In this document: positions 12,260-41,832 of the stretch, piece after piece
Layout of the letters: the number at the start of each line of letters is the position of its first letter
Numbering within the stretch: the stretch's first letter is position 1
DNA from: Ochromonas danica
Lineage: Eukaryota; Sar; Chrysophyceae; Chromulinales; Chromulinaceae
NCBI GenBank assembly: GCA_015146655.1
Contig: VKHL01000207.1
Coordinates: forward strand, 1 to 41,832
Length of the DNA: 41,832 nt
Direction: 5' to 3'
Program-made: the position numbers and the translations under genes
The notes under the pieces: generated by a model
Databases searched by the model: none
What the model was told of the DNA's origin: nothing
What the model saw: the letters and a program-made list of their open reading frames with translations, nothing else

Positions 12260-15160
12260 ATGGTAAATTGCATCATCTTTTTTATCTCTTATTTAGTCTA
12301 GTGGGTAGTGGTTAAGTTGACTGGTGTTGGCTGTATGTTGTAGAGCAATGGACTTAAGGGCTACAACCAGCTCAACCTCTCTGTAGACATTGAGGCTGGA
12401 GCGGTTGAGACGCGCGTTTCTCAGCTTATTGCTAGCAATGATGTGATTGTCTTTTCTAAGACAACTTGCCCCTTCTGCACTGGTAGGTGTTAACATGGAC
12501 CTAGTTGCAGTTTTTTTTCTTTTGGAACTAACAGTGTCATCACTTCAACAGAATTGAAGAGAACTTTGGTCTCCTATGGAGTCGCCTTTGCTGTCTTCGA
12601 AATCGATGAGACTGAAGTTGGTAATGAAATTTTGTCTTCTTTAAGTCAGAAGAGTGGTATTACCACTGTGCCCAACCTCTTCATCAAGGGGGAGAGCTAT
12701 GGTGGTTGCACTGATGTCAAAGCACTTGAGCACAGTGGCAAACTCTTTGGCATCCTTTCCCCATTTATTGGAAAGGGTTTGAAAGTGAAGACCCCTGAGC
12801 TTACTAAGCTTGGTCTTCTGTGGTACCCGGAGACTGTGAATGCTCATGTCACACGCTTGGTCGCTCTCTTCACTTGCATATTCTCTGCGATCTGCGTAAT
12901 CTTGTACTATCGTAATCCTACGAGGTGGGCAGTACTGGGTCTTGCTATGGATTGCCTTGCCCGCTATGTATATGGTGTCCGCGTTTCAATTCTTGGAATG
13001 TTGGCCACAGCTTATCTTGCTAAAATTCCTCCAAGATACACTGCTGGCCCTCCTAAACAGTTCTCAGCTCTGTTTGCTTCCTTCTTCTCCATCTTTGCTG
13101 CCGGCCTTTGGTTGGGTGGCAGAAAGAACGGTGGCGCTGTTGTGCTGGCGCTTCTGTTCTTCTTCACTTTCTTGGAGTCCTTCCTTGACTTCGACGTTGG
13201 AGCTTACATCTTTGGCGCCTTCTTGCGCTGGAAGGTTATTTCCCCCAGCATTTATAGACCTTATCTCAACCTTGTCGAAGACAAGAAGTGGACATACAAC
13301 TACCTCAATGAGAAGCGTGAATTCGCTGTTGCTGTCAACGAGCACTACTTGCTTCCTGGTCAGAAAGATCCTACCCCTGTCGATCTGATTAGAAAGGACC
13401 GCCTCGAGCTTGAGTACAAATTACAAGACGAGAGTGTTCTTCGCCATCTTCGTGTTGAATTCTTTGGACTTCCATTGGCTATCGCTGCCTTAGCTTACTG
13501 CTTCAACTTGACAGATGGTCATGCCAAGCATGGCGCCAACTTCAACGCTGGTTGGGCTTACTTCACGCTGGCTGTTCTGTCCGTGGTTATCTATGGCATT
13601 CTCTTCTTGATCTACTTCTTCAAGACCCTTCTCTACCCCAAGAAGGTTTTGAAGGAGTGGCATCATCCTGTCTATGGCAACTACTTCAACGCTATCACAA
13701 TTTGCATTGTTCTCTATGGTATTCTTCTCCTTCCTAGAGATGTTAGCGGTGGTGGAGTGGTTATCTGGATTGGTGCTATTGGTCAAATGATTGTTGCAGT
13801 GTTGAAGATCTCTGACCTTGTTTACAACCGTGTCCCTGATGACTATCTCAACGGCAGCATTCTCCTTTCTCCTATCGGCAACTTCATTACTGCTCTTGCC
13901 TTCGCTAGATATGACTATGTCGGTGGCCCTGACAGACATGGTGATCTGAACTATCTGTTCATCTCCAGATTGTGGTTCGCCTCTGCTGCTCTGTTTGGCC
14001 TTGTCATGTTTACCATTACCTACAAGAAGACTTTCGCTGACCACCACTCTGATGAGCGCTACAGACACAACACCTGGTTATGGCTGGCAACTTCATCCAC
14101 TGCTGGCCCTGCCTATTTGGCTGTTAGCAACTTCGATCGGGAGGTGGGCTTGGGTGTTCTCTTCCAAAGCTTGTGGTGCATTTCATTGTTCTTCTTCATT
14201 CTCAACTCTTACGGATGGATTCGCAACTTCCACAGCTACTCGAATGACTTGTCCATCTGGATTGTTCCTTTTGCTAATGCCACCTTCGCTTACAGCACCA
14301 TCTACTATCTCATCCAAGTTGGTGATGAACTGTTCAAGACTTTGTCCTTCCTGACTGTAGTTTTCACTTGCATCTTCGCTTCTGTCAGCGGTCTGTACAC
14401 TCTCTATTGGTTGTTTGATCACAAGCTCTTTGTTCCCAGACCTAAGTGGGGACCAGGAAGCTTCACCAAATTTACTCATGATGCTTTCCGCTTCGCTGTT
14501 CCCAAGTATGTTACTATTGTCAACGGTTTGGATCATGCCAGCCCTGATGCCATTGAGAGATTTGTTGCCGATTTTGAGAAGTTCATTGCTGCTTTTGATG
14601 CTCGTAACCAACACCTTGAGCATCTCATCTTCCCTGCTGCTCGCCGCTACTTCCCTCAGCTCAATCCTTCTTTGGATGCCGAGCTCGTTCAATTGACAGC
14701 AGATTTGGAGAAGTTGAAGCAGTTCGTGAAGGAATTCCACAGCAAGAATGGTAACGAGAAAGTTCTTGCTGGCCAGGAGTTCGTGGCCTATCTGAAGAAG
14801 TCTTTTGCTGCATGGGGCAACTTTGCTCTCGATCATCTCCGCAATGAGGAGAGCACCATAGCCGCTGTAGTTAGAAAGTACATTCCTGTTGAATATCAGG
14901 TGGAGTTGGTGAAGAAGGCCTTCGACCTCACAACTGGCGAGGAATGGCGTAAGGTTTTGCCTTGGGTGGTCTTCAACCTTCCTAATGACGAATGGAAGGT
15001 GAAGTATGTGAAGAGCTTTATCTGGGCAGATTCCAAGCGTGCACAGGAAATAGGATTAATTCTCTATGCGAATGTTGACAGTGTCACGTGGGTACTGCTT
15101 GCCAGAGAAGTCCCTGAAATTATCCCCCGTGGTCTGCCCGGTTTCAACAGAATCTATTAG
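12260..15160 (+). CDS. Four-domain fusion: glutaredoxin + DUF4395 + TehA/SLAC1-type channel + hemerythrin-like domain
   Basis: Exons are 12260-12262 (the ATG alone), 12344-12482 and 12552-15160, giving 916 aa in frame. Residues 1-115 form a glutaredoxin: CPFC at 43-46, TVP with the cis-proline at 88, and the Gly-Gly (98-99) that helps bind glutathione. Residues about 143-275 match DUF4395 (HVTRLVALF, LAMDCLARYVYGVRVS, PPKQFSALFASFFS, FLESFLDFDVGAYIFG), a membrane domain with four hydrophobic spans. Residues about 348-668 look like a ten-helix TDT/SLAC1-TehA channel (VEFFGLPLAIAALAY, EWHHPVYGNYFNAI, SILLSPIGNFITALAF). Residues about 688-830 resemble a hemerythrin-like four-helix bundle: FTHDAFRF, NQHLEHLIFPAARR and the HxxxEE of DHLRNEES. 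DUF4395 here lacks the usual Cys pair. The domain order suggests a membrane anion channel gated by thiol redox state and by an iron/oxygen sensor. That reading is inference. Confidence 0.85.
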
Positions 15161-16251: not shown

Positions 16252-16430
16252 GTTGTTGTTTGTTTCTCATGTCTAGAGGTCAGACAGTAAGCAGTGAGTG
16301 TGTAACGTCAGGAAACATTTACCACGCAAGGCAATAATAAGAGACGGTTTCTATGATGGCATTAATGACATAACTATTTCGTTATCTAATTATTAATGAA
16401 TAGTCCTTGAATTATATACAATCAGTTAAC
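16252..16430. promoter_or_regulatory. Divergent promoter of coiled-coil and DLEC1-like genes
   Basis: Only 179 bp separate the two ATGs, so both genes must share control sequence. The strip is AT-rich on the right half (ATTATTAATGAATAG near 16388-16402). The exact TTAAGTTAAC word is absent; GTTAAC sits directly before the ATG at 16431. An RFX-like site was not seen by eye. Confidence 0.45.
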
Positions 16431-19400
16431 ATGGCAAACGATGATGATGTTGAAGCAAAGATTCAAGCAGTCTATGCTGAGGTAGAGAAGAAAACTCGTG
16501 AAGCAGAGATGCTGTCAGCATATCTCCAAGAACAACAACAACTTGCTCATCTGACAGAAGAGAAAGAAGAAGAAGATTTGAAGCGACAGGGAATTATCGT
16601 TGGTCAACATATCCCATCATTACCTTCTCGTCTTCATCTTGATCCACAGCAATTGTCTGAATTTGAGAATTTCTCTTCCACCGTTTTGGTGGCCAAAGAC
16701 CTCATGATACAAAATCGTACTAACTTTCTTCGAAGAACGGGTAATCTACCTATTTCAGATCTTGCTGAAACAAGAAAAGAAGCAAGTTTGAAATATGTCT
16801 CTGAGATGACAGAAGAAGTTCCTCATTATCTCTTACAGACACGATCAGCAGATATTCGTAAAGAACGCAATACTGTGCGCTTTGAGGAAACTATCCAAGC
16901 AGTTGCCACTGCCACTGCTATGACAAGGAGCAAAAGACTTGCTAATAGCAAGACAGCAGCAGCAGCAGAGACCAAGTCAGAGCGAGTCTTGCCTATTTCT
17001 GCTAAAGAGCGACTGGAACACGAAAAAGTCCTCCAATCCATCAATCACAAACTACAATATCTTCGAAATCCACGTAATGATCCTGCAGCTGTATCTAAGA
17101 TGTTAGTTAAGCCTAAAGCTTATTTTGTTAATAAGCAAAAGGAAGAAGAAGCTTCTCTGGCAAGTCAACATGATGCAGCAAGTTTGAAAAAGAAATATGC
17201 CAAGCATACGCTAGTTCAAGATAACCCTTTATTCGTCTGTGAACCATCTTCAGTCTTCTTTATTGATTATGAAATTGGTCAGAAGTATAATCGAACATTA
17301 ATCTTTCGAAATACGTCAGCAGTAACAAGAAGTGTTCAAGTGGTTCCACCCAAATCCTCATTATTCACACTCTCTGCTATAAAATATCCAACTAATTCAG
17401 TGGGAGGTATGGTAGCACCAGGCATGTCTGTTAGTACTGTCTTGACCTTCATTCCAAAGGAATTGGGAGATTTTGAGGATTTTGTTAAAGTATTGTCAGA
17501 ATCTGGAAGTTCTGAAGTGCGCATTGTTGCACAACGAGAACCTCCTCAACTGAGCATTCCTCCTATCGTTGGATTGCCTGATTGTTTGGTAGGTGATGCT
17601 CAACGATCATCATTGACATGTGTGAATAATGGTGGTAGAGGGAAATTTGTGCTTTATGCGGAAGGAGTTGACAAAGAGAGAATGGATCAAAGCAACGTCT
17701 CTTTACGTATTCCACCTTTTACTCTCTATCCCACGTCGTTCACATTGGATAAAGGAGAGTCTATTGACTTGGTCATCGAATTTGTTCCGTTGACTATGGG
17801 GCTATTGCAGCGGCGATTTTCTGTCTTTTGTGACAATGGGCAAGAAAGAGAATTCACGATACAAGCTCGTAGCAAACAGTTGCAAGTTACAATGGCAGAG
17901 ATAAACCATGTCCTCTTTGATTTTCATGACAATCGTACAATTCATGACATGGTCTTTCAAGGCATCTCAATAGGATCAGATAGCAACCAACAGTTGGTGG
18001 TAATCAATGATACTGGACTGGCGGTTGAATATGAATGGGTTTGGATGAACTCTTCTATTCCGGATGATAGTTTGAGTAAAGAAGGGCAAAAGGTGATTCG
18101 ATCGCGACAGTCTGAAGAAAGGCCCATAACTGGCAGTGGCGATGACGGATCTCCAGACCATGGAGCAATGATGCACTCCTTGAAACAATCACTGGACATG
18201 ACCAAGGAGGATGGTAATTTCGGGCACTCTGATAGTGAGAATCGTGTGGTAGAGGGATCGTTGGAGATTTATCCTGCTCGGGGAGTGATTGCAGGAGAAG
18301 GTGCAGCTGAATTTCAAGTGCTTTATGCTCCCCAGGCCTTGGAGAAGATCTCATTGCAAGCTGTTCTGATGATCAAATCTATTCCACAGGCTGCATTACC
18401 AAGTCCAAAGCAGACGGCCTATCTGACTAATCTGGCCGAGCAAGGGCATGGACAGCATGTGCGATTGTTGAGTTGGTTGGAAGATCTCGCCTCCATGGGC
18501 ACAGTGACGGAATATGAGAAACCTAACGGATCCCCTTCCACACAATTACCACTCTTACAATTGAGTACAATAGTGCATATGGTACAGGGCCAGGTGATGG
18601 GTGCAGAGGAAACACTTGATGCCAAGGAATGGCAAGAAGAGATTCGCTCTTTTCATAAACTAGTCCATCTTCTACTAAAGCATACATATGATTCGCGGGT
18701 GAATAATGGACTGAGCGATGATGATAGCACCCTTAATGAAGAAGGCTCTGTTATCCATGAAAAGGACTCTATGATTGATCTCTATGACTGGGATGGGGAC
18801 AGTGGCACTAAACCAGAACAACTCTATCCTTATTCTATTCCTACAAATCTCTTTGCCAGTGAAGAAGAGGAAGAGGACGAAGAAGAAGAGGCAGAAGGAG
18901 AAAGAGAAGCGGTTGAACAGCAAGATCATTCCTCCAATCTCAGTGATTACAATGAAGCTGAAAGAAGCATGCTGGTAACAATCTGGGTAGATATACAAAA
19001 TGCGGTCAAGATTTTTGGGACAGCGATTGCCACATTACTCAATGATAAAGTGATGCATGAAGCTGTTGAGTATCTAAAAGATTGCGCATTGAATCATTTA
19101 GCATGTTTCAAATTGGATGTTCTCGCAGAAAGTGTTAAACCAAGAGTCACCGTGTCTCCTCCCTGCTTGGAATATCTTCAGCCTATTTCTATTGGTAAAG
19201 AATGTCAGGCAGAGATTCTTCTTGAGAATCATAGTAATGCACCGGTTCAATTGAAAATCATGAAAAATGATTTTATTGCCAAGCGATTGTTTTCAACGTA
19301 TTCAGATGAGATTGCAGAGGATAACCTGCCCAATAGCTTTATGGATACCTTGGAGATTATCAAGTCTTTCTTTACTATCAATTGTGATTTTGATAATGTC

Positions 19401-22400
19401 CTCATTATGCCCAAATCCACTGAGAAGTTGTCATTCTCCGTTGTTAGTACTAATACAGGAAGATTCGCAGTTACTCTGCCTCTTCGAAGCGAGCGTGGAA
19501 TTGTCGATGTTGAGTCGATTCAAGTCTTTCTAAATATCACTGGACCCAAGTTAAAGTTTTTGTCTGCTGAGATTGATTTAGGATTGTTGGGTGTTGGTCA
19601 GGAGCAAGTTTGTCCTCTTAGCTTTGTTAATGAAGGAGATGTGCCGGTCATGTTTATAATGAAACCTCAGCTATACATTGAGACAACCATTCCAAAGAAA
19701 GGTGGAGCAAGCAGCAATCAGAAAGATGCGGTGACTGTGATAACCTCACGACCTAATACAAATCGAGATCCGGGCAGTGCTCGCAGTACAATGTCTCGTC
19801 AATCAATGCGCAGTGATGACTTCTCTGTGGCTGATTCTGCTGCAACCTCAACTGACTTTAAAATAGAGATGAAGAATGCAGTGGTTACGATTGAGCCATC
19901 TTCAGGTGTAGTTCAACCAGGAACTTCTTTTACAGTGAACATTTGTGGAAAAGCAGGCAAGCTGCCTCAGCGTATCCGAGGAATGTTAGAAAGCCGTCTA
20001 TTTGACGAAGTTGGTCAGTTGGAAATCCATCGTCAATACTTGAATCTTCGTGGTGAAGTACAGCAACCAAAGGTCATGCTCTATCCTATGCAGCATAACT
20101 TGGGACAGGTTTATGTTGGTCGACCTGTCAAATTCCAACTCACTTTAGAAAATGTTTGCAATCTGCCAACCAAGTTCAAGTTTCTTCGTCCTGGTGGACA
20201 ATCGTCTCTCTTCCACTTTACTGTAAATCCCACTAAAGGCAGCTTAGAAGCGAAAGAGAAATTGTTGATCGAGGGAGTCTTCACTGCTTTAACACCTGGT
20301 GCTATCGATGATGTGATTTCATGTAAAATGTTTGGAATTACACTCCCACTCGGCTTTGCTCTGAAAGCCTTTGCCAAAGGCATTCAGCTGGACTTCGTCA
20401 ATCTGGCAGATGGTGATCCTTTGCCTCCTCCTTTAGCTGATCCAGAGGCTGTACAGTTTCCTGGTGGGGGGAAAGCACCTGAGGCAGGACCAGTGCATCC
20501 CATATTCTTGGGAGATCAAGTCCCGCTCTATGAACGACGATCTGGTCGATTTGTTATTCGCAATCTGTCTGCTATTCCAGCTGCGTTTGAAATACGCCCA
20601 CGTAAGTTTGTTGTGGTAGAAGTGAAAGGAAGGAAGAAGACCGTCTTGCTTGAAGCGCCATCGTCTTCCACATCCCTTGCCTCCTCGGTGGCACTTCGAA
20701 AAGATGCGATACTTGCTCCTCATGAAGAAGGAACCAATAAGTTCCAATCAATGGCGGGTAAGAAGTACATTGGTGCTATCGTAGATCGTCGAGATGATAA
20801 AGTGTTTCTTAAATCGGGCCTTGGTGCTGCTTATGCCTTCAGCACTGCTCTGGGAGTTATTCCTCCTTGGGGTGTTCAAGAAGTCTTTGTTCATGCCTAC
20901 AATGATATCCCAGGTTGTTATGATGATGACATTGAGGTCTCGCTGCATGAAAACGAGATAGTTCGAAAGTTTCTCATCCCTGTCAAACTTTCGGTCGTTG
21001 GTTGCCCTGTTGTGATCGAAAAGAGTACTGTGGGAATGACGACGATGGGAGATAAGGGTCCCCAAGAGCTCAGAGGAAAGCAGTTGCTTCAATTAGGTCA
21101 GGGATATGAACATGGACCACCTCTAGTCCGAGAGTTCTTTGTTCGAAATCATGGTTCGAAGAGTGCGCAAGTGAAGTGGATGATTCGTGGGTTAGCTTCA
21201 AAGATGAATGGACCAGTCAAAGTGGGCATTGTTTTGGATCCTGTTACATGCCGTGCAAAGTGTCAAATTCGATATTGGGAAGATTTGGCGAAGGAAAGTC
21301 CATTTGTGGTGCAGCCTGCCAGTTATGAGGTGCCGCCGTATGGCAAGGCGCTCTTCCGAGTCACTCTTGCTCGCAGCTCTCCTGCTGTTTTGGAACGGGC
21401 CCAATTGACTGCAATTATCACTGTACCTGACAATATGAATCAAGATGATGCCTCCTTAATGGAGAAAGAAACAGGGAGTGATTCAGCCTCTCTTGCTGGA
21501 AGTGTACATTCCGTAGGATCTGCGTCTGTAGTTCCGCGCTCCAGGTCTATGAGTTCGGTGGGGCTCAAGAAACATAACTTTTCCTTGCAGATGATAGTTG
21601 AAGGGTCATTTATTCATCCTCAGCTTGCGATAGAGAAGCGAATCTTCTCGATTTCGCAGTCGCAAATGGAAGTGTCTGAGCAAGAAGCATTGGCATTGAA
21701 AGCCAAGGCCACTCTCCTCTTTTCCTCTGATGGAAAGCTCTCTCAGCCATGTAAAAAGCTCTTGACTCTTGCCAATCCTCTGGACATTTCTGCGGTATTC
21801 ACAGTGAGTACCGAGGGATCAGTCGCAATCAAAGACTTACAAGACTCTTCTTCTGTGAAGGAGGAAGGCTCCCATGGTAGCCACACGAGTAAGATTACCA
21901 TCGATCATAAGAATGTTCCAGTGACGAGCAGTACCCAGTCGTCCCATGGTCGATCTTTGCATCTTGGTCCTCAGGTATGATTGATTTTATCTGTTTGCTA
22001 CTTTCTGTTTGTTCAAGTGGTATCACGGAATGGTATGGTTTAGGAATCTGTTAAGCTTATGATTGCTTTCTATCCGCGCAAGCAAGTCCGAGAGACTCTG
22101 TTGGGAACATTTGGCAAAGAAGCGGGCAAGCCAACTGAGAATATTTCGTATTTGGTGGCTTCCTATCCTACAGGCCAAAGCCTGCGCTTGCCAATTATCA
22201 CATCCATCAGCACTCCATTCATTGCTGGTTCTTCCCCTCGCCTCAATTTTGGTACTTGTCATGTGCGTTTCAACTGTCAAGCAACTTATCTCCTCAGCAA
22301 TCCAACCGATGTACCCGCGAGATGGACTGTTGCCCATGTTCCTGGTGGAGGCCAATGGAGGCAGTCCACAGCGATTAGAGTGCGAGGATTTGACCAAGAG

Positions 22401-24266: not shown

Positions 24267-24987
24267 CTACCGCCATTTAGCCTCTCGCAGCTCTTCTCCA
24301 CTTGACTCCTCCTTCTTGCCATAGAGAGAGACGAGCAGTTCAATAGCAAGATTGACTGTAGCCTCAAAGTGCTCTTTGCCTCTGCCTTCTTCTTTCAAGG
24401 AGATTGCCAGCAAGAGTGGCTTGGAGGTGAAGAAGCTGCAGCGCTCGATGAGCTGGCGAGCGAAAATGTTGAGCAAAGGATCATCTCTGCGGCCCAAGAC
24501 ATTCTCCACGAAGTAACGCAAACCTCCATCAGACTTGGGCTCCGACCAAGCCTTCAACAAGCTGCCCACTTTGTTAATTTGTGTGATGAGGACGAAGTTC
24601 TGGTTGGCAAAGACTGGAAGAAGAGAAATGGGTTAGTGTAAAGCCATAACAACGGCACCACAGTATAGTATGACCAAGGGATGGAGAGAGACAGAGAGTC
24701 AGTCAGTCAGTCAGTCAGTCAGTCAGTCAGTCAGTCAGTCAGTCAGTCAGTCAGTCAGTCAGTCAGTCAGTCAGCCAGTCAGTCAGTCAGTCAGCCAGTC
24801 AGTCAGTCAGTCAGTCAGTCAGACAGTCAGTCAGTCAGTCAGTGCGGGTCGCTGAGAAATGTTTGGAGGAGGAGAGAGATTTCTCACCTGAACAAACTAT
24901 CTCAGTCTCAACATCATTTATAAGGATGGTTTCTTTCTTTTCAAGTGGAAAAGCAGCGCTCTCTAGAACTGTGTCCGCTATTTCCAT
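24267..24987 (-). CDS. PSMG3: Proteasome assembly chaperone 3-like protein (PSMG3)
   Basis: Exons 24987-24888 and 24613-24267, joined over a 274-nt intron (GTGAGA donor, TTCCAG acceptor), give 148 aa in frame. The join yields EIVCSVFANQNFVLITQINK, then VGSLLKAW, and later VLGRRDDPLLNIFARQLIER and KPLLLAISLKE. This lines up with animal PSMG3 in order and spacing (VVCTAFSSHILVLVTQFGKM, then VLLGQDEPLIHVFAKNL, then AVLLAVAVKD). PSMG3 pairs with PSMG4 to help build the 20S proteasome alpha ring in the cytosol. The length is close to the family (122 aa in human). Its long intron holds the tetranucleotide repeat listed below. The start is 158 bp from the divergent EXS-protein ATG. Confidence 0.78.
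24697..24843. repeat. (AGTC)n microsatellite, about 147 bp, in the PSMG3-like intron
   Basis: About 37 tandem AGTC units with a few interruptions (AGCC twice, AGAC once). All three forward frames translate as Ser-Val-Ser-Gln, so long open frames here are an artefact of the repeat. It makes this intron, at 274 nt, the longest in the window. Confidence 0.97.
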
Positions 24988-25145
24988 TTCTTTCGATCAG
25001 ATTTGATCACTTCCAAGTGACAGCTAGTAGTTCCATGGAAACTATATGGAATCCATAGTTATTGTTAGGTGTGGGAATATCTCATAGTCCAGTTGATCAA
25101 ATCCCACAGAATTTCATTTGATTTGATACTGCTGGCAGAGAGATA

Positions 25146-27684
25146 ATGGAGGGATTAAATTGGAGGTTAGCAATAGGACAAATCGAGCAAGAAATCAACA
25201 ATCTTCATTGCAATGTAGTCATTCATGGGAAGTTCCTGAACAAGTTTGACGCCATGTCTCTGTCCTCACTGGATCTCGACGAGTCCACCGGAGCAATCCA
25301 AGGCCAGCTGCCCAAACTCGAGGGACTAAATAATCTCTATAAGGAGTTGAATGATATTCTCAATAAAGGGTTTATTCGCCAGCAACAGTTTTTAGCGACA
25401 GTGAAGGAGTTGTTGTGTCGAGGACAAACTCTCGCCCACGCTCTCCACCTGCCCTCACACAAGAAAGAGAAGGAAGAAGTTATAGGAGGATGGAGTCAGG
25501 AGGAAGAAGAAGTGGATGATCTCCTCACTTTTGAATCACCAGACCCTGAGTCAGCTTCTTATCAAAAGCAAGAGCTGCGCGTTCTGTTGAGAGATCTGTA
25601 CATGGCGCTTACTTCCTTCTCAGAGACCAAGCTGGCCTTCCTGCGATGTACACAGGAAATCATCCATTGCTATGAAGAAACCATCGTTGGTCTGGCAGAA
25701 GAAAATGGTGTTTTGCAAGTGGCTGTCAAGTACCGATTAGCCACCTCAACTATCATGACGGCCTTGTTGGAGCACAAGTTCTTTATGACACAAGAGGAGG
25801 ATAAAATGCTTGAAAGAGTTAGAAGGTTGTGGGGAAGACTAGCACTGGGAGGAAATACAAGCCAAGTTCTCACGGAGAAAGATCTAGCGCGTGTGGTACG
25901 TGTTCCACCTTGATCAATAACATCAAAATATCACTGTTTTTGACCTTTTTATGGTTGTCTTATATACAGGCGAGGGACAGTCAGTGGAGTAAAAGCAAAT
26001 CCTTGGCTGGGCAAGTAGGAGCTGCCTTGGTCTTAATGTTATGGGCAACCTCAGAGTGTCTCTACAACGAAAGCGCCTCTTATCCTGTTTGGAATGTGAG
26101 AATGATGATGTGTTTACTTTATTTATTTTCAACTGTTACCTATTACTGTTCATGGATGTCTAGGATCCAACATTTGCTATATTCATGTGTATCGGAGACT
26201 TCCTGTTGTTACAGTTTATGTGGGGCTTGGCCATGTTTGTCTGGAAGCAGTCAGGCATTGATTTTGTACAGTTATTACAACTGCAAGGTACAGAAGTCGA
26301 AGCTGCAAAATATCCTGCAGCATTAGTTATTCAGTCTGCTACTAAGCGTTCTATAATCTTCCTTCTTACTTTCATTGTCTTTAACAAGTCCGTCCATATG
26401 GCTGTGAATGGACAGTTCAGTTTAGCCTATGCGCATACACTTCCTGTCTTATTGGGCCTCTACTTTCTCTACATCGTCTTCAATCCTTGGGAAAAGCGTA
26501 AGATCTGGCTGAGTATGGTTGGAAGAGTTTTGATTGCCCCATTATCTCCTGTCATTTTCCGCGATGGCTTTATTGGTGATATTCTCACATCATTGGTACG
26601 CGTTCTGGTCCCAGGCGCTTTTTCTTTGTTATATGTGGTTATTTCAGTCTACGCATGGTTATGCAATGACATTCGGTGGACTGTAAGTACTTCAGATCGA
26701 TGGTGGTCACATAGTCAATGGTGCCATCACTTAGTGATCCCGCTGTTGACTCTCTACCCTCTCTGGATTCGTCTTGTTCAATGTCTGCGTCGCTCCGTAG
26801 AAACAGGACACCGCTGGCCACACATGGTCAATGCACTCAAATATACCTCAGCTATTATTGTGATCTCCTTTGCTACATTCCAGCCTCGTCTTCGGCGAGA
26901 TCCGTGGTGGGTGTTGTCATTAATTGGGGCAACCCTCTTTCAATATTCCTGGGATTTGACTCAGGATTGGGGTATGATCATCTTCCATTTTCCTCGAGAG
27001 AGTCGTCATGGTTCTTCACCATTAGATCGCTGTTTGAAATGCTCAATCTCACTACGACAGAAGAGACTTTTGGGGCCATCCTGGTTATATATCTCTGTCA
27101 TGCTCTTTAATTTAGCGCTGCGCTTTGCTTGGACTCTGACTTTGTTGCCTGCTCCCGAAGAAGATGATGTGAAGAGCGTTTACGCCACTGTAGTCTCTCA
27201 TATCGGTCCTATCGTGGCTGCGGCAGAGATTGTGCGACGGATGGTGTGGGGATTCTATCGATTGGAATTTGAGCAGATAGAGATCCTGCAGCGCCAACCA
27301 GTTGTTGTTGCTACGCTCCCCGTCACTGAACTCGAACGGGTACAGTTAACATTGTCCTTTTCTTGGTTTCTTATATCATGTCAATTGATCATTTTGTGTG
27401 CACAGATGGACGTGGAAACTTCGTTTGAAGGGCAATTATCTCAAAGCCATGAAAAGCAGCAAAGCTACCAAGCTCTGGATGTGGAAAACGGTGATGCATC
27501 ACCTGAAGATTGGACTTCCTTCTTGCCCTCCGATGTGATAGCTTACATTGATGCGATGAGCCTGTCGACGGGATGGCAGCCCAAAGTGCGTTTTATCGAG
27601 TGTGTCCTATTTGCAGGTTCTGTGCTCTGTGCTGTGCTATTGGCTGCCAGTCCTATTTTCTTCTCTGCGCATCCTCTTCAATGA
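25146..27684 (+). CDS. EXS-domain phosphate exporter-like protein (XPR1/PHO1 family) with shortened SPX-like head
   Basis: Exons 25146-25895, 25970-26095, 26164-27339 and 27406-27684 give 776 aa. The C-terminal half has many hydrophobic spans and EXS signatures: DPTFAIFMCIGDFLLL, FNPWEKRKIWLSMVGRVLIA, FRDGFIGDILTSL, LYPLWIRLVQCLRR, GHRWPHMVNALKYTS and LEFEQIEILQRQP. EXS proteins of the XPR1/PHO1 group export inorganic phosphate and are gated by inositol pyrophosphates bound to the N-terminal SPX domain. Here the head starts late: VVIHGKFLNKFDAMS resembles the SPX Lys-cluster helix (FRKILKKFDK), but the usual first helices (MKFGK) are missing and only part of the Lys cluster remains. The proposed last intron (27340-27405, 66 nt) is in frame and stop-free, so a longer isoform is possible. 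A divergent PSMG3-like gene starts 158 bp upstream. Confidence 0.82.
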
Positions 27685-35792: not shown

Positions 35793-35961
35793 TCTTTTTC
35801 CAGAACTTGGCCAGCAATCTGTTGTGTAATGTATTGTTGCGGCACGTGGGAAGAAGCACTTCACCGACGAAGTCAGCAAGACCACACACAGAAGAGTCTG
35901 GGAACAAAGACCAAGGAGACAAGACGAGATATGCATCTGTATTTTCCTCCTTGAGTATTCC

Positions 35962-38900
35962 ATGAAATCACCGTTGCCATATCTCTCTATTTTTCATCTC
36001 ATTTCCTTGTGGGGATGTCTCTGGGTTGTGCGAAGCGCAGAATTTTTCGGGGATGCCAAGGATTTGGACACGAAAACTAACAACATCACCCTTGTGACAG
36101 CAAAAGCGACACCAACTACAAGACCCAGCTTAAAGCCGACACCTCCACCAACTACAAGACCCAGCTTAAAGCCGACACCTGCTCCATCTGCTGCTGTGAG
36201 TCGTTCTTGGGCTTTTTACTATGAATACAATTACTATTATTGCTTTTCATATTCAGCCAGTAACACTAATTCAGCCACTACATATGCTACCACACCTCAG
36301 TGCTATATTTCTTTGTGCCCAGGTAACACTATATCATTGGGCAGCTGCTCGAGTTATGCATCTGGTACAATATACCCTACGTGCTCTGGCAATCAGGTTT
36401 TGAGGTTGGTGGACGACTATGGCAACACAGTAGCTATAAGCAGCGCATCGTGTGGGACGTGTGCTGAGTTGAGCTATACAGTTCCCTCTTATACATCTTG
36501 CCAGACGTACAGTATCTGGGAAGGTTGTAATTCCGCGGAAAGCTGCAGCGGTCAAGTGGGAATCGAGCTAACCTCCCCAACTTCAAGTCCCAACTACAAG
36601 CCGACACCTGCACCTACTACCGTTGTGAGTCGCTCTTCGGCAATCTATTCTGGAAACAATTACTATTATTGCCCTTTCTATTCAGCCAGCAACACTTATT
36701 CTGCCACTTATTATACTACCACATCTCAGTGCTACATTTCTTTGTGCCCAGGTGACACTATATCATTGGGCAGCTGCTCGAGTTATGCACATGGTGGGGT
36801 ATATCCTGAGTGCTCTGGCAACCAGGTTTTGAGGTTGGTGGACGGTTATGGTAACACAGTAGCTATAAGCAGTGCATTGTGTGGGACCTGTGCTGCGTTA
36901 AGCCATTCAGTTCCCTCTTATACATCTTGCCAGACGTACAGTATCTGGGAAGGTTGTAATTCCGCGGAAAGCTGCAGCGGTCAAGTGGGAATCGAGCTAA
37001 CCTCCCCAACTTCAAGTCCCAACTACAAGCCGACACCTGCACCTACTACCGTTGTGAGTCGCTCTTCGGCAATCTATTCTGGAAACAATTACTATTATTG
37101 CCCTTTCTATTCAGCCAGCAACACTTATTCTGCCACTTATTATACTACCACATCTCAGTGCTACATTTCTTTGTGCCCAGGTGACACTATATCATTGGGC
37201 AGCTGCTCGAGTTATGCACATGGTGGGGTATATCCTGAGTGCTCTGGCAACCAGGTTTTGAGGTTGGTGGACGGTTATGGTAACACAGTAGCTATAAGCA
37301 GTGCATTGTGTGGGACCTGTGCTGCGTTAAGCCATTCAGTTCCCTCTTATACATCTTGCCAGACGTACAGTATCTGGGAAGGTTGTAATTCCGCGGAAAG
37401 CTGCAGCGGTCAAGTGGGAATCGAGCTAACCTCCCCAACTTCAAGTCCCAACTACAAGCCGACACCTGCACCTACTACCGTTGTGAGTCGCTCTTCGGCA
37501 ATCTATTCTGGAAACAATTACTATTATTGCCCTTTCTATTCAGCCAGCAACACTTATTCTGCCACTTATTATACTACCACATCTCAGTGCTACATTTCTT
37601 TGTGCCCAGGTGACACTATATCATTGGGCAGCTGCTCGAGTTATGCACATGGTGGGGTATATCCTGAGTGCTCTGGCAACCAGGTTTTGAGGTTGGTGGA
37701 CGGTTATGGTAACACAGTAGCTATAAGCAGTGCATTGTGTGGGACCTGTGCTGCGTTAAGCCATTCAGTTCCCTCTTATACATCTTGCCAGACGTACAGT
37801 ATCTGGGAAGGTTGTAATTCCGCGGAAAGCTGCAGCGGTCAAGTGGGAATCGAGCTAAGCTCCCCAACTTTAAGCCCCAGCTTGACGTCGACAACTGCAC
37901 CAACTACCGTTGTGAGTTGTACTTGGGCAACTGACTCTGGAGACAATTACTACTATTGCCCTTTCTATTCAGCCAGCAACACTGATTCAGCCACTACATA
38001 TGCTACCACATCTCAGTGCTACATTTCTTTGTGCCCAGGTAACGCTATATCATTGGGCAGCTGCTCGAGTTATGCACATGGTGGGGTATATCCTGAGTGC
38101 TCTGGCAACCAGGTTTTGAGGTTGGTGGACGGTTATGGTAACACAGTAGCTACAAGCAGCGCCACGTGCGGGACCTGTGCTGAGTTGAGCTATACGGTTC
38201 CCTCTTATACATCTTGCGAGGTGTACAGTATCTGGGAAGGTTGTAATTCCGCGGAAAGCTGCAGTGGCGAAGTTGGTGTGCTCTTCAGTGCTTCAGAAAG
38301 TCCTACGCTTAGTCCTACTTTTTTCCCCTCTTTCTCGCCTTCCTTAAATCCTAACACAATGTTCACCTTCGCCACCTACTACAGCGCCTACGGAGGGCTG
38401 GCCTCAACCACTAGTCAAACTGAATCAATCTGGGTGCAATCCTTGGCAGAAGTACTGGGCATACCGCCAAGTGAGATTATTTTTATTTCGACTTCAACTT
38501 TTGTCTCCGCTGCTGGTAGAACGGGTGCGGAACGTTTGACAGAAGGCGACATTGTGGTAAATATGGAAGTGAAAATGCTGCTGTCTGACTTGTATCTTCC
38601 CTATGGAGCTACGCTAGATGATGCATTGGACGTGGTGAACAATGACATCACTTGGCTGGAGAGTCCCAGTGGTCTGCAGAGCCTTCAGGACACGTTGATC
38701 AGCGTGGCTAATGGCATGGGTGATTCCAGTTTCACTGTGAGTGTGGCGGAGCTGCAATGTAGCACGGTGGTGGTAAGCACTCCGGTGGATGATGATGATG
38801 ATGGCGGAGGGGATGGAGGGTCAGTCGACGTTATGTTCTGTGTGCTGTTTGTATTTGTTCCCATCGCTGGGGCTTCTGTGTTGTTTGCGCTGTGTTGGTG

Positions 38901-39195
38901 GTTGTGGCGCAATTACTGCCGTAGAAACTCATCACCTCCAGTTGTGGTGGACCAGCAGCAAAATGTTTCCCGTAGAGCTGGAGCAGGTAGCAACAACAAT
39001 AATAATAATGTCAACAGCGACCAGAACGTGGCGAGAGATTTGGAGTCAGCTGCAGCAGTGATGAACGTTATTTCCATTGTCCATTCTATACCAGACGCGG
39101 CTGTACGCTATCCATCTACGACGGAAGTTGTCGTGGCCATTCCATTAGCTAGTGAGAATGACAGTAAACTTCCTTCTGCTCCACCTTTGCCATAA
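35962..39195 (+). CDS. Cell-surface protein with five Cys-rich repeats, SEA-like domain and one transmembrane helix
   Basis: A single exon of 1077 aa. A signal peptide (MKSPLPYLSIFHLISLWGCL) is followed by a Thr/Pro linker (TTRPSLKPTP twice). Five tandem 143-residue units then run from about 75 to 788. Each has ten cysteines in a fixed pattern (YYYC, QCYISLC, LGSCSSY, ECSGNQVLRLVDGYGN, CGTC, SCQTYSIWEGC, ESCSG), probably five disulfides in a beta-sandwich, joined by NYKPTPAPTT linkers. After a PTLSPTFFPSFSP linker comes a roughly 130-residue alpha/beta domain (about 799-930) that looks SEA-like, then an Asp/Gly spacer, a hydrophobic helix (about 957-980) and a cytosolic tail with an Asn run. 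It is likely an adhesin or wall/scale anchoring protein. Units 2-4 appear identical at DNA level. A paralogue begins at 40535. Confidence 0.8.
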   Translation: MKSPLPYLSIFHLISLWGCLWVVRSAEFFGDAKDLDTKTNNITLVTAKATPTTRPSLKPTPPPTTRPSLKPTPAPSAAVSRSWAFYYEYNYYYCFSYSASNTNSATTYATTPQCYISLCPGNTISLGSCSSYASGTIYPTCSGNQVLRLVDDYGNTVAISSASCGTCAELSYTVPSYTSCQTYSIWEGCNSAESCSGQVGIELTSPTSSPNYKPTPAPTTVVSRSSAIYSGNNYYYCPFYSASNTYSATYYTTTSQCYISLCPGDTISLGSCSSYAHGGVYPECSGNQVLRLVDGYGNTVAISSALCGTCAALSHSVPSYTSCQTYSIWEGCNSAESCSGQVGIELTSPTSSPNYKPTPAPTTVVSRSSAIYSGNNYYYCPFYSASNTYSATYYTTTSQCYISLCPGDTISLGSCSSYAHGGVYPECSGNQVLRLVDGYGNTVAISSALCGTCAALSHSVPSYTSCQTYSIWEGCNSAESCSGQVGIELTSPTSSPNYKPTPAPTTVVSRSSAIYSGNNYYYCPFYSASNTYSATYYTTTSQCYISLCPGDTISLGSCSSYAHGGVYPECSGNQVLRLVDGYGNTVAISSALCGTCAALSHSVPSYTSCQTYSIWEGCNSAESCSGQVGIELSSPTLSPSLTSTTAPTTVVSCTWATDSGDNYYYCPFYSASNTDSATTYATTSQCYISLCPGNAISLGSCSSYAHGGVYPECSGNQVLRLVDGYGNTVATSSATCGTCAELSYTVPSYTSCEVYSIWEGCNSAESCSGEVGVLFSASESPTLSPTFFPSFSPSLNPNTMFTFATYYSAYGGLASTTSQTESIWVQSLAEVLGIPPSEIIFISTSTFVSAAGRTGAERLTEGDIVVNMEVKMLLSDLYLPYGATLDDALDVVNNDITWLESPSGLQSLQDTLISVANGMGDSSFTVSVAELQCSTVVVSTPVDDDDDGGGDGGSVDVMFCVLFVFVPIAGASVLFALCWWLWRNYCRRNSSPPVVVDQQQNVSRRAGAGSNNNNNNVNSDQNVARDLESAAAVMNVISIVHSIPDAAVRYPSTTEVVVAIPLASENDSKLPSAPPLP
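36183..38327 (+). repeat. Five tandem 429-bp coding repeats
   Basis: Units begin at 36183, 36612, 37041, 37470 and 37899, each exactly 429 bp apart. By line-by-line reading, units 2 and 3 are identical and unit 4 is identical except at its 3' border. Units 1 and 5 are diverged. The same unit recurs in the paralogue from about 41170. The fifth unit loses similarity near 38290. Confidence 0.93.
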
Positions 39196-39864: not shown

Positions 39865-40480
39865 TCTTCATCTTCTTCTACTCCCTTCTTCACAACAAGT
39901 AAGAAAACAAGCCGGTTTCGTCCATGTTAAAAAAATGGTCTCTGATTTATAAGCTTGCAGTGCTGTCTTTAAAGCCTCAATTTGTGCAGCGTGATCGACT
40001 CGACTATACCCACCAGCCTCGCCATGAAGATTAGTGAAATCGATATCGTATCTTCGACGAAACGTTTTCTGTCGCTTACAATTGGGCAGCAGTACTTTCG
40101 AATAATTGGTGCGACTGTTACTGCTTTCTTCTCCAAAAAGTTCTTTCTTCGTCACTGGCACTCCAGTACGAAAGAAGTTTTCTCGGGTGGTTTCGATAAA
40201 GCCAACGACTTTCTCCTCAATCCACATAAATAAAGGCTCGAAACATGTCCGTGTCCATTCCTGCATCAAGTCGGATCTGTTCTTTTTCCGAATGACGACG
40301 AATCTTTCGAACACCACGAACAGAAATTCCATAGTGCAGAGCCAGCTTCCCGGTTTCAAGAGTGCTTCATCGAATCTCTTATCTCTCCTTTATAATAAGA
40401 TTTCGCTTCATAGATAATATTGATCATCTCGCCAGATTCATCAGATTCCCAGATCTTGCAGTATGACACCAAAGCCAAAG
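39865..40480 (-). mobile_element. Decayed pogo/Tigger-type (CENP-B-like) DNA transposase fragment
   Basis: Reverse-strand reading shows the transposase N-terminal layout spread over more than one frame. There is a first HTH-like stretch (ALHYGISVRGVRKIRRHSEK), then a CENP-B/Tc5-type second HTH (PLFMWIEEKVV, GVPVTKKELF, FRRRYDIDFTNLHGEAGGYS), then NMDETGLF near 39930-39905. The last is the start of the pogo-clan DDE catalytic domain with its first Asp. The frame changes at least twice, and the rest of the DDE domain and the terminal repeats are not visible, so it is a dead, truncated copy. It sits between the two surface-protein paralogues, just upstream of the second. Confidence 0.72.
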
Positions 40481-40534
40481 CTAAAGGAAGACAAGATCTA
40501 CATCTCGATCTGTATTTTCCTCCTTGAATATTCC

Positions 40535-41832
40535 ATGAAATCACCGTCACCATACCTTTCTATTTTTCATCTTATTTCATTATGGGGATGTCTTTGGATT
40601 GTGCGAAGCGCAGAATTTTTCGGGGATGCCAAGGATTTGGACACGAAAACTAACAACATCACCCTTGTGACAGCAAAAGCGACAAGTTCTGATACCACTT
40701 CTGGCCTGGCGGAGGCATCACCTCTCGCAGTAAGTCGTTCATGGGCCTATAATTATGACCTCGGGCATTATTATTGCCCTTCTTATTATGCCATCAACAC
40801 TAACTCGGCCACCAACTATGAAACCACATCTCAATGCTATATAACCATGTGTGGAGGTTATACGATGACGTTAGGGAGCTGCTCAAGCGACTCTAACGGT
40901 GGTGTGAATGCTGCTTGCAGTGGCAATCAAGCGTTAAGATTGTTAGATGCAAATGACAATGTGGTGGCGACGAGCGGCGCGAGCTGTGGCACCTGTAGCC
41001 AGATCACTTATTACGGCAACTTCTCCGCCTCCTTGTGCGAAACGTTTTCGATTTGGGAAGGTTGTTTTTCCTCGGAAAGCTGCAGTGGTGAAGTGGGAAT
41101 TCAACTGGTCAGCTTGAAGCCGACACTTGCACCAACTACAAGACCCAGCTTGAAGCCGACACCTGCACCAACTACTGCTGTGAGTCGTACTTGGGCAACT
41201 GACGCTGGAGACAATTACTATTATTGCCCTTTCTATTCAGCCAGCAACACTAATTCAGCCAATACATATGCTACCACATCTCAGTGCTACATTTCTTTGT
41301 GCCCAGGTAACGCTATATCATTGGGTAGCTGCTCGAGTTATGCACATGGTGGGGTATATCCTGAGTGCTCTGGCAACCAGGTTTTGAGGTTGGTGGACGG
41401 TTATGGTAACACAGTAGCTATAAGCAGTGCATTGTGTGGGACCTGTGCTGCGTTAAGCCATTCAGTTCCCTCTTATACATCTTGCCAGACGTACAGTATC
41501 TGGGAAGGTTGTAATTCCGCGGAAAGCTGCAGCGGTCAAGTGGGAATCGAGCTAACCTCCCCAACTTCAAGTCCCAACTACAAGCCGACACCTGCACCTA
41601 CTACCGTTGTGAGTCGCTCTTCGGCAATCTATTCTGGAAACAATTACTATTATTGCCCTTTCTATTCAGCCAGCAACACTTATTCTGCCACTTATTATAC
41701 TACCACATCTCAGTGCTACATTTCTTTGTGCCCAGGTGACACTATATCATTGGGCAGCTGCTCGAGTTATGCACATGGTGGGGTATATCCTGAGTGCTCT
41801 GGCAACCAGGTTTTGAGGTTGGTGGACGGTTA
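40535..41832 (+). CDS. Paralogue of the Cys-rich surface protein (5' part; runs off the window)
   Basis: The ATG at 40535 opens a frame that stays open to the window end (at least 432 aa). The signal peptide and first 50 residues nearly equal those of the gene at 35962 (MKSPSPYLSIFHLISLWGCL, AEFFGDAKDLDTKTNNITLV). The first Cys-rich unit is divergent (SRSWAYNYDLGHYYC, ITMCGGYTMTLGSC) but keeps all ten cysteines. The second unit is a mosaic: its first half resembles unit 5 of the other gene (TWAT, DNYYYC, GNAISLGSC) and its second half equals units 2-4. The third unit is identical to units 2-4 as far as visible. Linkers are TTRPSLKPTPAPTT. The role is presumably the same as the neighbour's. 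Confidence 0.85.
   Translation, partial: MKSPSPYLSIFHLISLWGCLWIVRSAEFFGDAKDLDTKTNNITLVTAKATSSDTTSGLAEASPLAVSRSWAYNYDLGHYYCPSYYAINTNSATNYETTSQCYITMCGGYTMTLGSCSSDSNGGVNAACSGNQALRLLDANDNVVATSGASCGTCSQITYYGNFSASLCETFSIWEGCFSSESCSGEVGIQLVSLKPTLAPTTRPSLKPTPAPTTAVSRTWATDAGDNYYYCPFYSASNTNSANTYATTSQCYISLCPGNAISLGSCSSYAHGGVYPECSGNQVLRLVDGYGNTVAISSALCGTCAALSHSVPSYTSCQTYSIWEGCNSAESCSGQVGIELTSPTSSPNYKPTPAPTTVVSRSSAIYSGNNYYYCPFYSASNTYSATYYTTTSQCYISLCPGDTISLGSCSSYAHGGVYPECSGNQVLRLVDG
40599..40684. repeat. 86-bp segment identical to 36026-36111
   Basis: The 5' coding part of the second surface-protein gene is identical over 86 bp to the first gene. The similarity extends upstream, with scattered differences, through the ATG to CTGTATTTTCCTCCTTGA (35938 and 40510 regions). 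It marks the start of a duplicated gene block that includes a short piece of promoter. Confidence 0.9.

Follow-up and report, generated by a model that had tools for sequence, protein, structure and literature searches.

The window, by which I mean the whole stretch of 41,832 nucleotides of Ochromonas danica DNA analysed here (contig VKHL01000207.1), carries on its forward strand a gene in which a glutaredoxin, a DUF4395 membrane domain and a TDT (TehA/SLAC1) channel domain are followed by a C-terminal part that is possibly a hemerythrin-like helix bundle (Table 1). Spliced together, the three exons encode a product of 916 amino acids. The two introns, of 81 bases (12263-12343) and 69 bases (12483-12551), are both of the GT-AG type and each brings in an in-frame stop when kept unspliced, with splice sites that are predicted from the genomic sequence alone. 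Exon 3 reads through 868 codons before it comes to its stop, whereas in 200 shuffled versions of this exon no run without a stop exceeds 191. The GC content at third codon positions (GC3) amounts to 0.50 in the glutaredoxin, 0.53 in DUF4395, 0.55 in the linker and TDT domain and 0.52 in the C-terminus, as compared to 0.37 and 0.45 for two open frames nearby, and this uniformity along the gene argues against a join of unrelated sequence. An earlier note on this DNA had held that these are not two genes misjoined, and I can uphold that: the even GC3 and the single exon that holds the later half of the glutaredoxin and all that follows lead me to reject a misjoining. Its statement that all four parts lie in one exon needs a small correction, as the 69-base intron separates the CPFC motif, encoded in exon 2, from the remainder of the glutaredoxin and everything downstream of it, which are in exon 3. 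Judged by its reading frame and composition, the fusion is one real eukaryotic gene, with predicted splice sites. In the window, no second copy of the gene was found at E up to 1, nor any tRNA, nor any Rfam match at the gathering score.

Table 1. Exons, domains and single residues of the fusion gene, with positions in the window and residue numbers of the 916-residue product.
Feature	Position	Strand	Basis
Exon 1, coding part (ATG only)	12260..12262	+	Gene model, GT-AG; stop upon intron retention
Exon 2, N-terminus and first part of glutaredoxin, including CPFC (12467-12478)	12344..12482	+	Gene model
Exon 3, including stop codon: remaining glutaredoxin, DUF4395, linker, TDT channel, C-terminal bundle, tail	12552..15160	+	
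Glutaredoxin domain, residues 35-113 (split by intron 12483-12551): CPFC, TVP, GGCTD	12443..12748	+	Pfam, TIGR02180, PDB
DUF4395 membrane domain, residues 143-272	12836..13225	+	Pfam PF14340
D262-V-G-A265 in place of bacterial C-x-G-C	13193..13204	+	Alignment with 43 bacterial domains
Charged linker, residues 273-345, probably cytosolic	13226..13444	+	Sequence; membrane side inferred
TDT (TehA/SLAC1) channel domain, residues 346-658	13445..14383	+	Pfam PF03595, phmmer, profile
F621, at the position of the gating Phe262 in HiTehA	14270..14272	+	Alignment
Possible hemerythrin-like helix bundle, residues 676-833	14435..14908	+	Sub-threshold Pfam, profile, predicted structure
C-terminal tail, residues 834-916, without assigned family	14909..15157	+	No Pfam match at E up to 10; low model confidence

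The fusion gene is adjoined by an open frame of 1858 amino acids (16404-21980, + strand) with cilium-associated Ig domains of the CFAP65/HYDIN/DLEC1 type, which, along with the GT-AG introns, gives the window a eukaryotic look and suggests a source that bears flagella. The same strand further holds a simple repeat, translated in one frame as (SVSQ)n (24674-25003), and an EXS-family membrane protein (26164-27681, E 3e-61), a family linked to phosphate export. Two open frames, at 35830-39192 (+) and at 40424-41830 (+), of which the latter extends to the window end, have a near-identical stretch close to both starts (EYSMKSP.PYLSIFHLISLWGCLW.VRSAEFFGDAKDLDTKTNNITLVTAKAT) and are probably a tandem duplicate.

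Searching the product against Pfam places Glutaredoxin (35-95), DUF4395 (143-272) and SLAC1 (346-658) above their curated cut-offs. The order of four parts given in the earlier note thus stands for the first three, the fourth being reduced to a possible hemerythrin-like fold; among the Pfam families it had named, PF00462, PF14340 and PF03595 score over the cut-off and PF01814 under it. The glutaredoxin match is strong (E 1.5e-15, 57.6 bits versus a cut-off of 22.9), and its closest structures in the PDB are 5zvl and other glutaredoxins. The eukaryotic glutaredoxin model TIGR02180 gives 82 bits over residues 35-113, below the NCBIfam equivalog cut-off of 87.25. The motifs that the earlier note had named for this domain are present, namely CPFC (43-46), the cis-Pro in TVP (86-88) and the glycine pair in GGCTD (98-102), which also holds the aspartate of the glutathione site. 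The domain has these in common with the eukaryotic dithiol glutaredoxins (TIGR02180, PF00462), from which it differs in being built into a membrane protein and in its score slightly below the NCBIfam cut-off.

The channel domain is similarly well preserved (PF03595, E 1.4e-23, 84 bits versus 27.9, profile positions 1-324 of 331). It shares with the TDT family (TehA, SLAC1/SLAH, Mae1 and Ssu1; PF03595) the full-length channel domain, the gate phenylalanine and a glycine equivalent to G15 of HiTehA, which is G353 here. With phmmer it aligns across its length with HiTehA at E 7e-9, and a profile of five sequences that includes the domain itself finds HiTehA at 6e-43, SLAH3 at 2e-41 and SLAC1 at 2e-35. 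The gating residue of HiTehA is Phe262 according to PMC11050165, and this conserved phenylalanine on TM9 is retained as F621. A search of contigs with the TDT alignment confirmed at least 302 bacterial relatives; 80 were retained, and 46 of these were compared by frame length alone. Their open frames measure 320-451 amino acids in 45 of 46 cases and 789 amino acids in one (L031, with 473 residues ahead of the match), so that by length none could hold the whole C-terminal part, and short extra ends occur in L017, L030 and L035. Around 39 bacterial TDT loci, 93 neighbouring ORFs (of 148 listed) include no sulfur-assimilation family among the 25 of 101 families listed, and the sole thiol-linked families recognised there are AhpC/TSA and glyoxalase II (HAGH_C), with 2 of 93 each.

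The DUF4395 match covers practically the entire profile (positions 1-129 of 130, E 1.5e-13, 51.7 bits versus 24.5). I aligned it with 43 bacterial domains, taken from 45 loci (L086-L130, leaving out L127 and L129), in which a C-x-G-C motif is nearly invariant, the glycine occurring in every row and each cysteine missing from just one of the 43. The fusion protein reads D-V-G-A in this place, in a stretch that aligns without gaps and in which a conserved R (35/43) and F (42/43) are retained. The closest bacterial rows, at 24% identity, belong to members of the phylum of Flavihumibacter and begin with CPV, a cysteine that is missing in the fusion protein as well. Going by this alignment, the copy described here lacks the cysteines that are probably the active ones in bacteria. 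It resembles its bacterial counterparts as a whole-profile membrane domain and differs from them in the two sites just mentioned and in being fused, as the bacterial open frames among those listed span 96-528 amino acids, a length that is insufficient for the fusion architecture.

Among the bacteria, the genomes with PF14340 number 95 of 296 in the Flavihumibacter phylum, 11 of 199 in that of Paenibacillus and 3 of 398 in that of Halochromatium. Enzymes of the PLP-dependent Cys/Met metabolism family are the commonest neighbours (8 of 95 ORFs, out of 130 listed) and rhodaneses occur in 4 of 95, which are raw counts without background in which near-identical loci (e.g. L101 and L102) are unmerged; these neighbours indicate that bacterial DUF4395 tends to adjoin sulfur amino-acid metabolism. 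The claim that DUF4395 often lies near thiol-redox proteins is right only in part: glutaredoxin and thioredoxin, like SLAC1, are absent among the 25 of 132 neighbour families listed. This sulfur context derives from relatives that retain the cysteines lost in the fusion protein. With its near-invariant C-x-G-C and its sulfur-linked neighbours, the bacterial DUF4395 itself may be a membrane protein that handles sulfur.

The C-terminal part is more difficult to assign. No hemerythrin is listed by Pfam for the whole 916-residue protein at E up to 1; when the region is isolated, Hemerythrin is the best match, at a sub-threshold 16.1 and 14.1 bits (versus 25.3; E 0.016 and 0.065) for two different cuts. 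A profile of bacterial hemerythrin domains from 57 of 60 loci (3 were skipped) gives 7.5 bits, which 1 of 1000 shuffles exceeds, and hhalign against a hemerythrin alignment of 20 sequences gives E 0.0036 with a probability of 9%. AlphaFold without an alignment yields a mean pLDDT of 53 for 241 residues, and for the 158 residues 678-835 a single-sequence model of four long and two short helices (pLDDT 69.4, pTM 0.61). In Foldseek, this shorter model finds 3cax (PF0695) first, at probability 0.99, TM 0.60 and E 0.27, with designed bundles scoring close and no match at E 0.001; 3cax is in turn matched by the hemerythrin profile at 2e-4. The longer and poorer model has no hemerythrin by name in its best 50 of 204 matches. 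With phmmer, searching the PDB at E up to 10 yields five matches to the C-terminus. No hemerythrin is among them, and the best one (8vd6, E 0.0015) owes its score to several repeat units within the tail, each very weak. Ten matches to the C-terminus in 200 genomes of one phylum, the best at E 0.03, were dismissed as noise. With the hemerythrin HHE domain (PF01814; YtfE, DcrH, PF0695), this region may share the helix bundle of the model, which finds PF0695 first, and it has an FP motif after helix B; the score below the Pfam cut-off and the loss of three of six ligand columns set it apart. The hemerythrin-like bundle of the earlier note survives as the best Pfam match, below the cut-off, and as the top Foldseek hit, at an E that is not significant.

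That note had suggested that a di-iron hemerythrin sensing O2, NO or iron would, together with glutathione, control an anion channel. The similarities just described speak for such a sensor, as do H690, H809 and E813, which occupy three of the six columns that hold the metal ligands in hemerythrins. However, the other three columns read R732 and L766 in place of histidine and L736 in place of glutamate, so that, even if the bundle is a hemerythrin, control by iron or oxygen finds no support, and the alignment holds no complete set of its ligands. On a helical wheel, which is uncalibrated on true hemerythrins, only D756, D765, E813 and E814 among the His, Asp and Glu residues point inward, and H690 and H809 do not. 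In addition, 27 of 150 shuffles do as well or better at the conserved His/Glu columns (at least 4 of 7), and a score of 6 of 9 or more is attained by 9 of 150; the bundle's matches at these columns are not unusual, and the alignment is weakly anchored. The C-terminal part would therefore be hemerythrin-like at best, lacking a complete set of di-iron ligands, and I regard the di-iron sensor, which was not borne out, as highly improbable.

Alternatively, the glutaredoxin could sense the glutathione pool and gate the TDT pore, either by a change of shape or by (de)glutathionylation, as its intact motifs stand in cis with a well-preserved channel domain. If both DUF4395 and the TDT domain have an even number of membrane passes, the glutaredoxin and the bundle would be on the same side, presumably the cytosolic one, the membrane sides being assumed from the families. 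Apart from the cysteines of the glutaredoxin (C43, C46 and C100), the protein has C156, C162, C182, C364, C432, C590 and C654, all within or beside hydrophobic segments, and none at all in the last 262 residues (655-916). A clear target thiol is hence hard to see in the channel, and to judge from this cysteine map a switch in its cytosolic loops is unlikely. This objection has its limits, as C182 and C364 have the least hydrophobic surroundings and are possible thiol targets, and gating might also be non-covalent; I consider a redox-gated channel unlikely, yet with a chance that is more than slight. It could also be that this is an ordinary, lineage-specific multidomain TDT protein with extra domains for localisation or stability, and that it carries malate, nitrate or chloride, the substrates known from its relatives in the TDT family. 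HiTehA, SLAH3 and SLAC1 are its nearest solved structures, and the algal TDT proteins are diverse (PMC3509319). However, the intact motifs would be surprising if the glutaredoxin domain were idle, and I find this explanation rather improbable.

The reading I favour, to which I would give somewhat less than an even chance, is that an active-looking dithiol glutaredoxin is fixed via DUF4395 to a TDT anion channel and finds its substrate, a small molecule, at the mouth of the channel. As DUF4395 and the bundle are without all or half of their key residues, respectively, a redox enzyme tethered to a channel is likelier than a channel that senses iron or oxygen. Both domains would be non-catalytic adaptors, serving as membrane anchor or for contacts within an oligomer or with a partner, which would leave the glutaredoxin's chemistry as the only one; and since the channel has no obvious cytosolic cysteine target, the glutaredoxin would more likely act on a small molecule. 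At the pore mouth it could reduce a mixed disulfide of the glutathione or S-sulfo kind, and the anion set free, perhaps sulfite or another oxyanion like it, would cross the membrane through the TDT pore. The sulfur-linked neighbours of the bacterial DUF4395 genes also speak for this reading. Grx1 and NrdH of Escherichia coli reduce S-sulfocysteine and thereby release sulfite (PMC3528435), and Ssu1 exports sulfite and selenite (PMC10269739), which together make sulfite a candidate cargo, although these precedents are separate proteins and not a fusion. By analogy with them, sulfite would be a guess within the tethered-enzyme reading, and a doubtful one; the lack of sulfur-assimilation families near the bacterial TDT loci, among the 25 of 101 listed, weakens it.

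Among the open-access papers listed, I found none that describes such an architecture. Viral contigs gave no confirmed relative of the fusion with any of four queries (exon 3, TDT alignment, C-terminus, DUF4395 region). Nine plasmid records match weakly within the TDT or the glutaredoxin part, and five phage records match the glutaredoxin part. The fusion combines known families in a new way, and one of these, perhaps also a second, is degenerate; the analysis covered one sequence of this architecture, so that the residue losses are those of a single protein. The most far-reaching version, a transport-coupled redox enzyme of a new type in which an oxyanion is freed at the pore from its glutathione or S-sulfo adduct and then carried, with DUF4395 and hemerythrin reduced to structural adaptors, would have to be called improbable at present. 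If true, it would link glutathione chemistry and anion transport within one polypeptide. It would also give DUF4395, which is seldom mentioned in the open-access literature, a context that can be tested. The fusion illustrates, too, that a striking list of domains can mislead, as two of the four are without residues that a sensing role would require.
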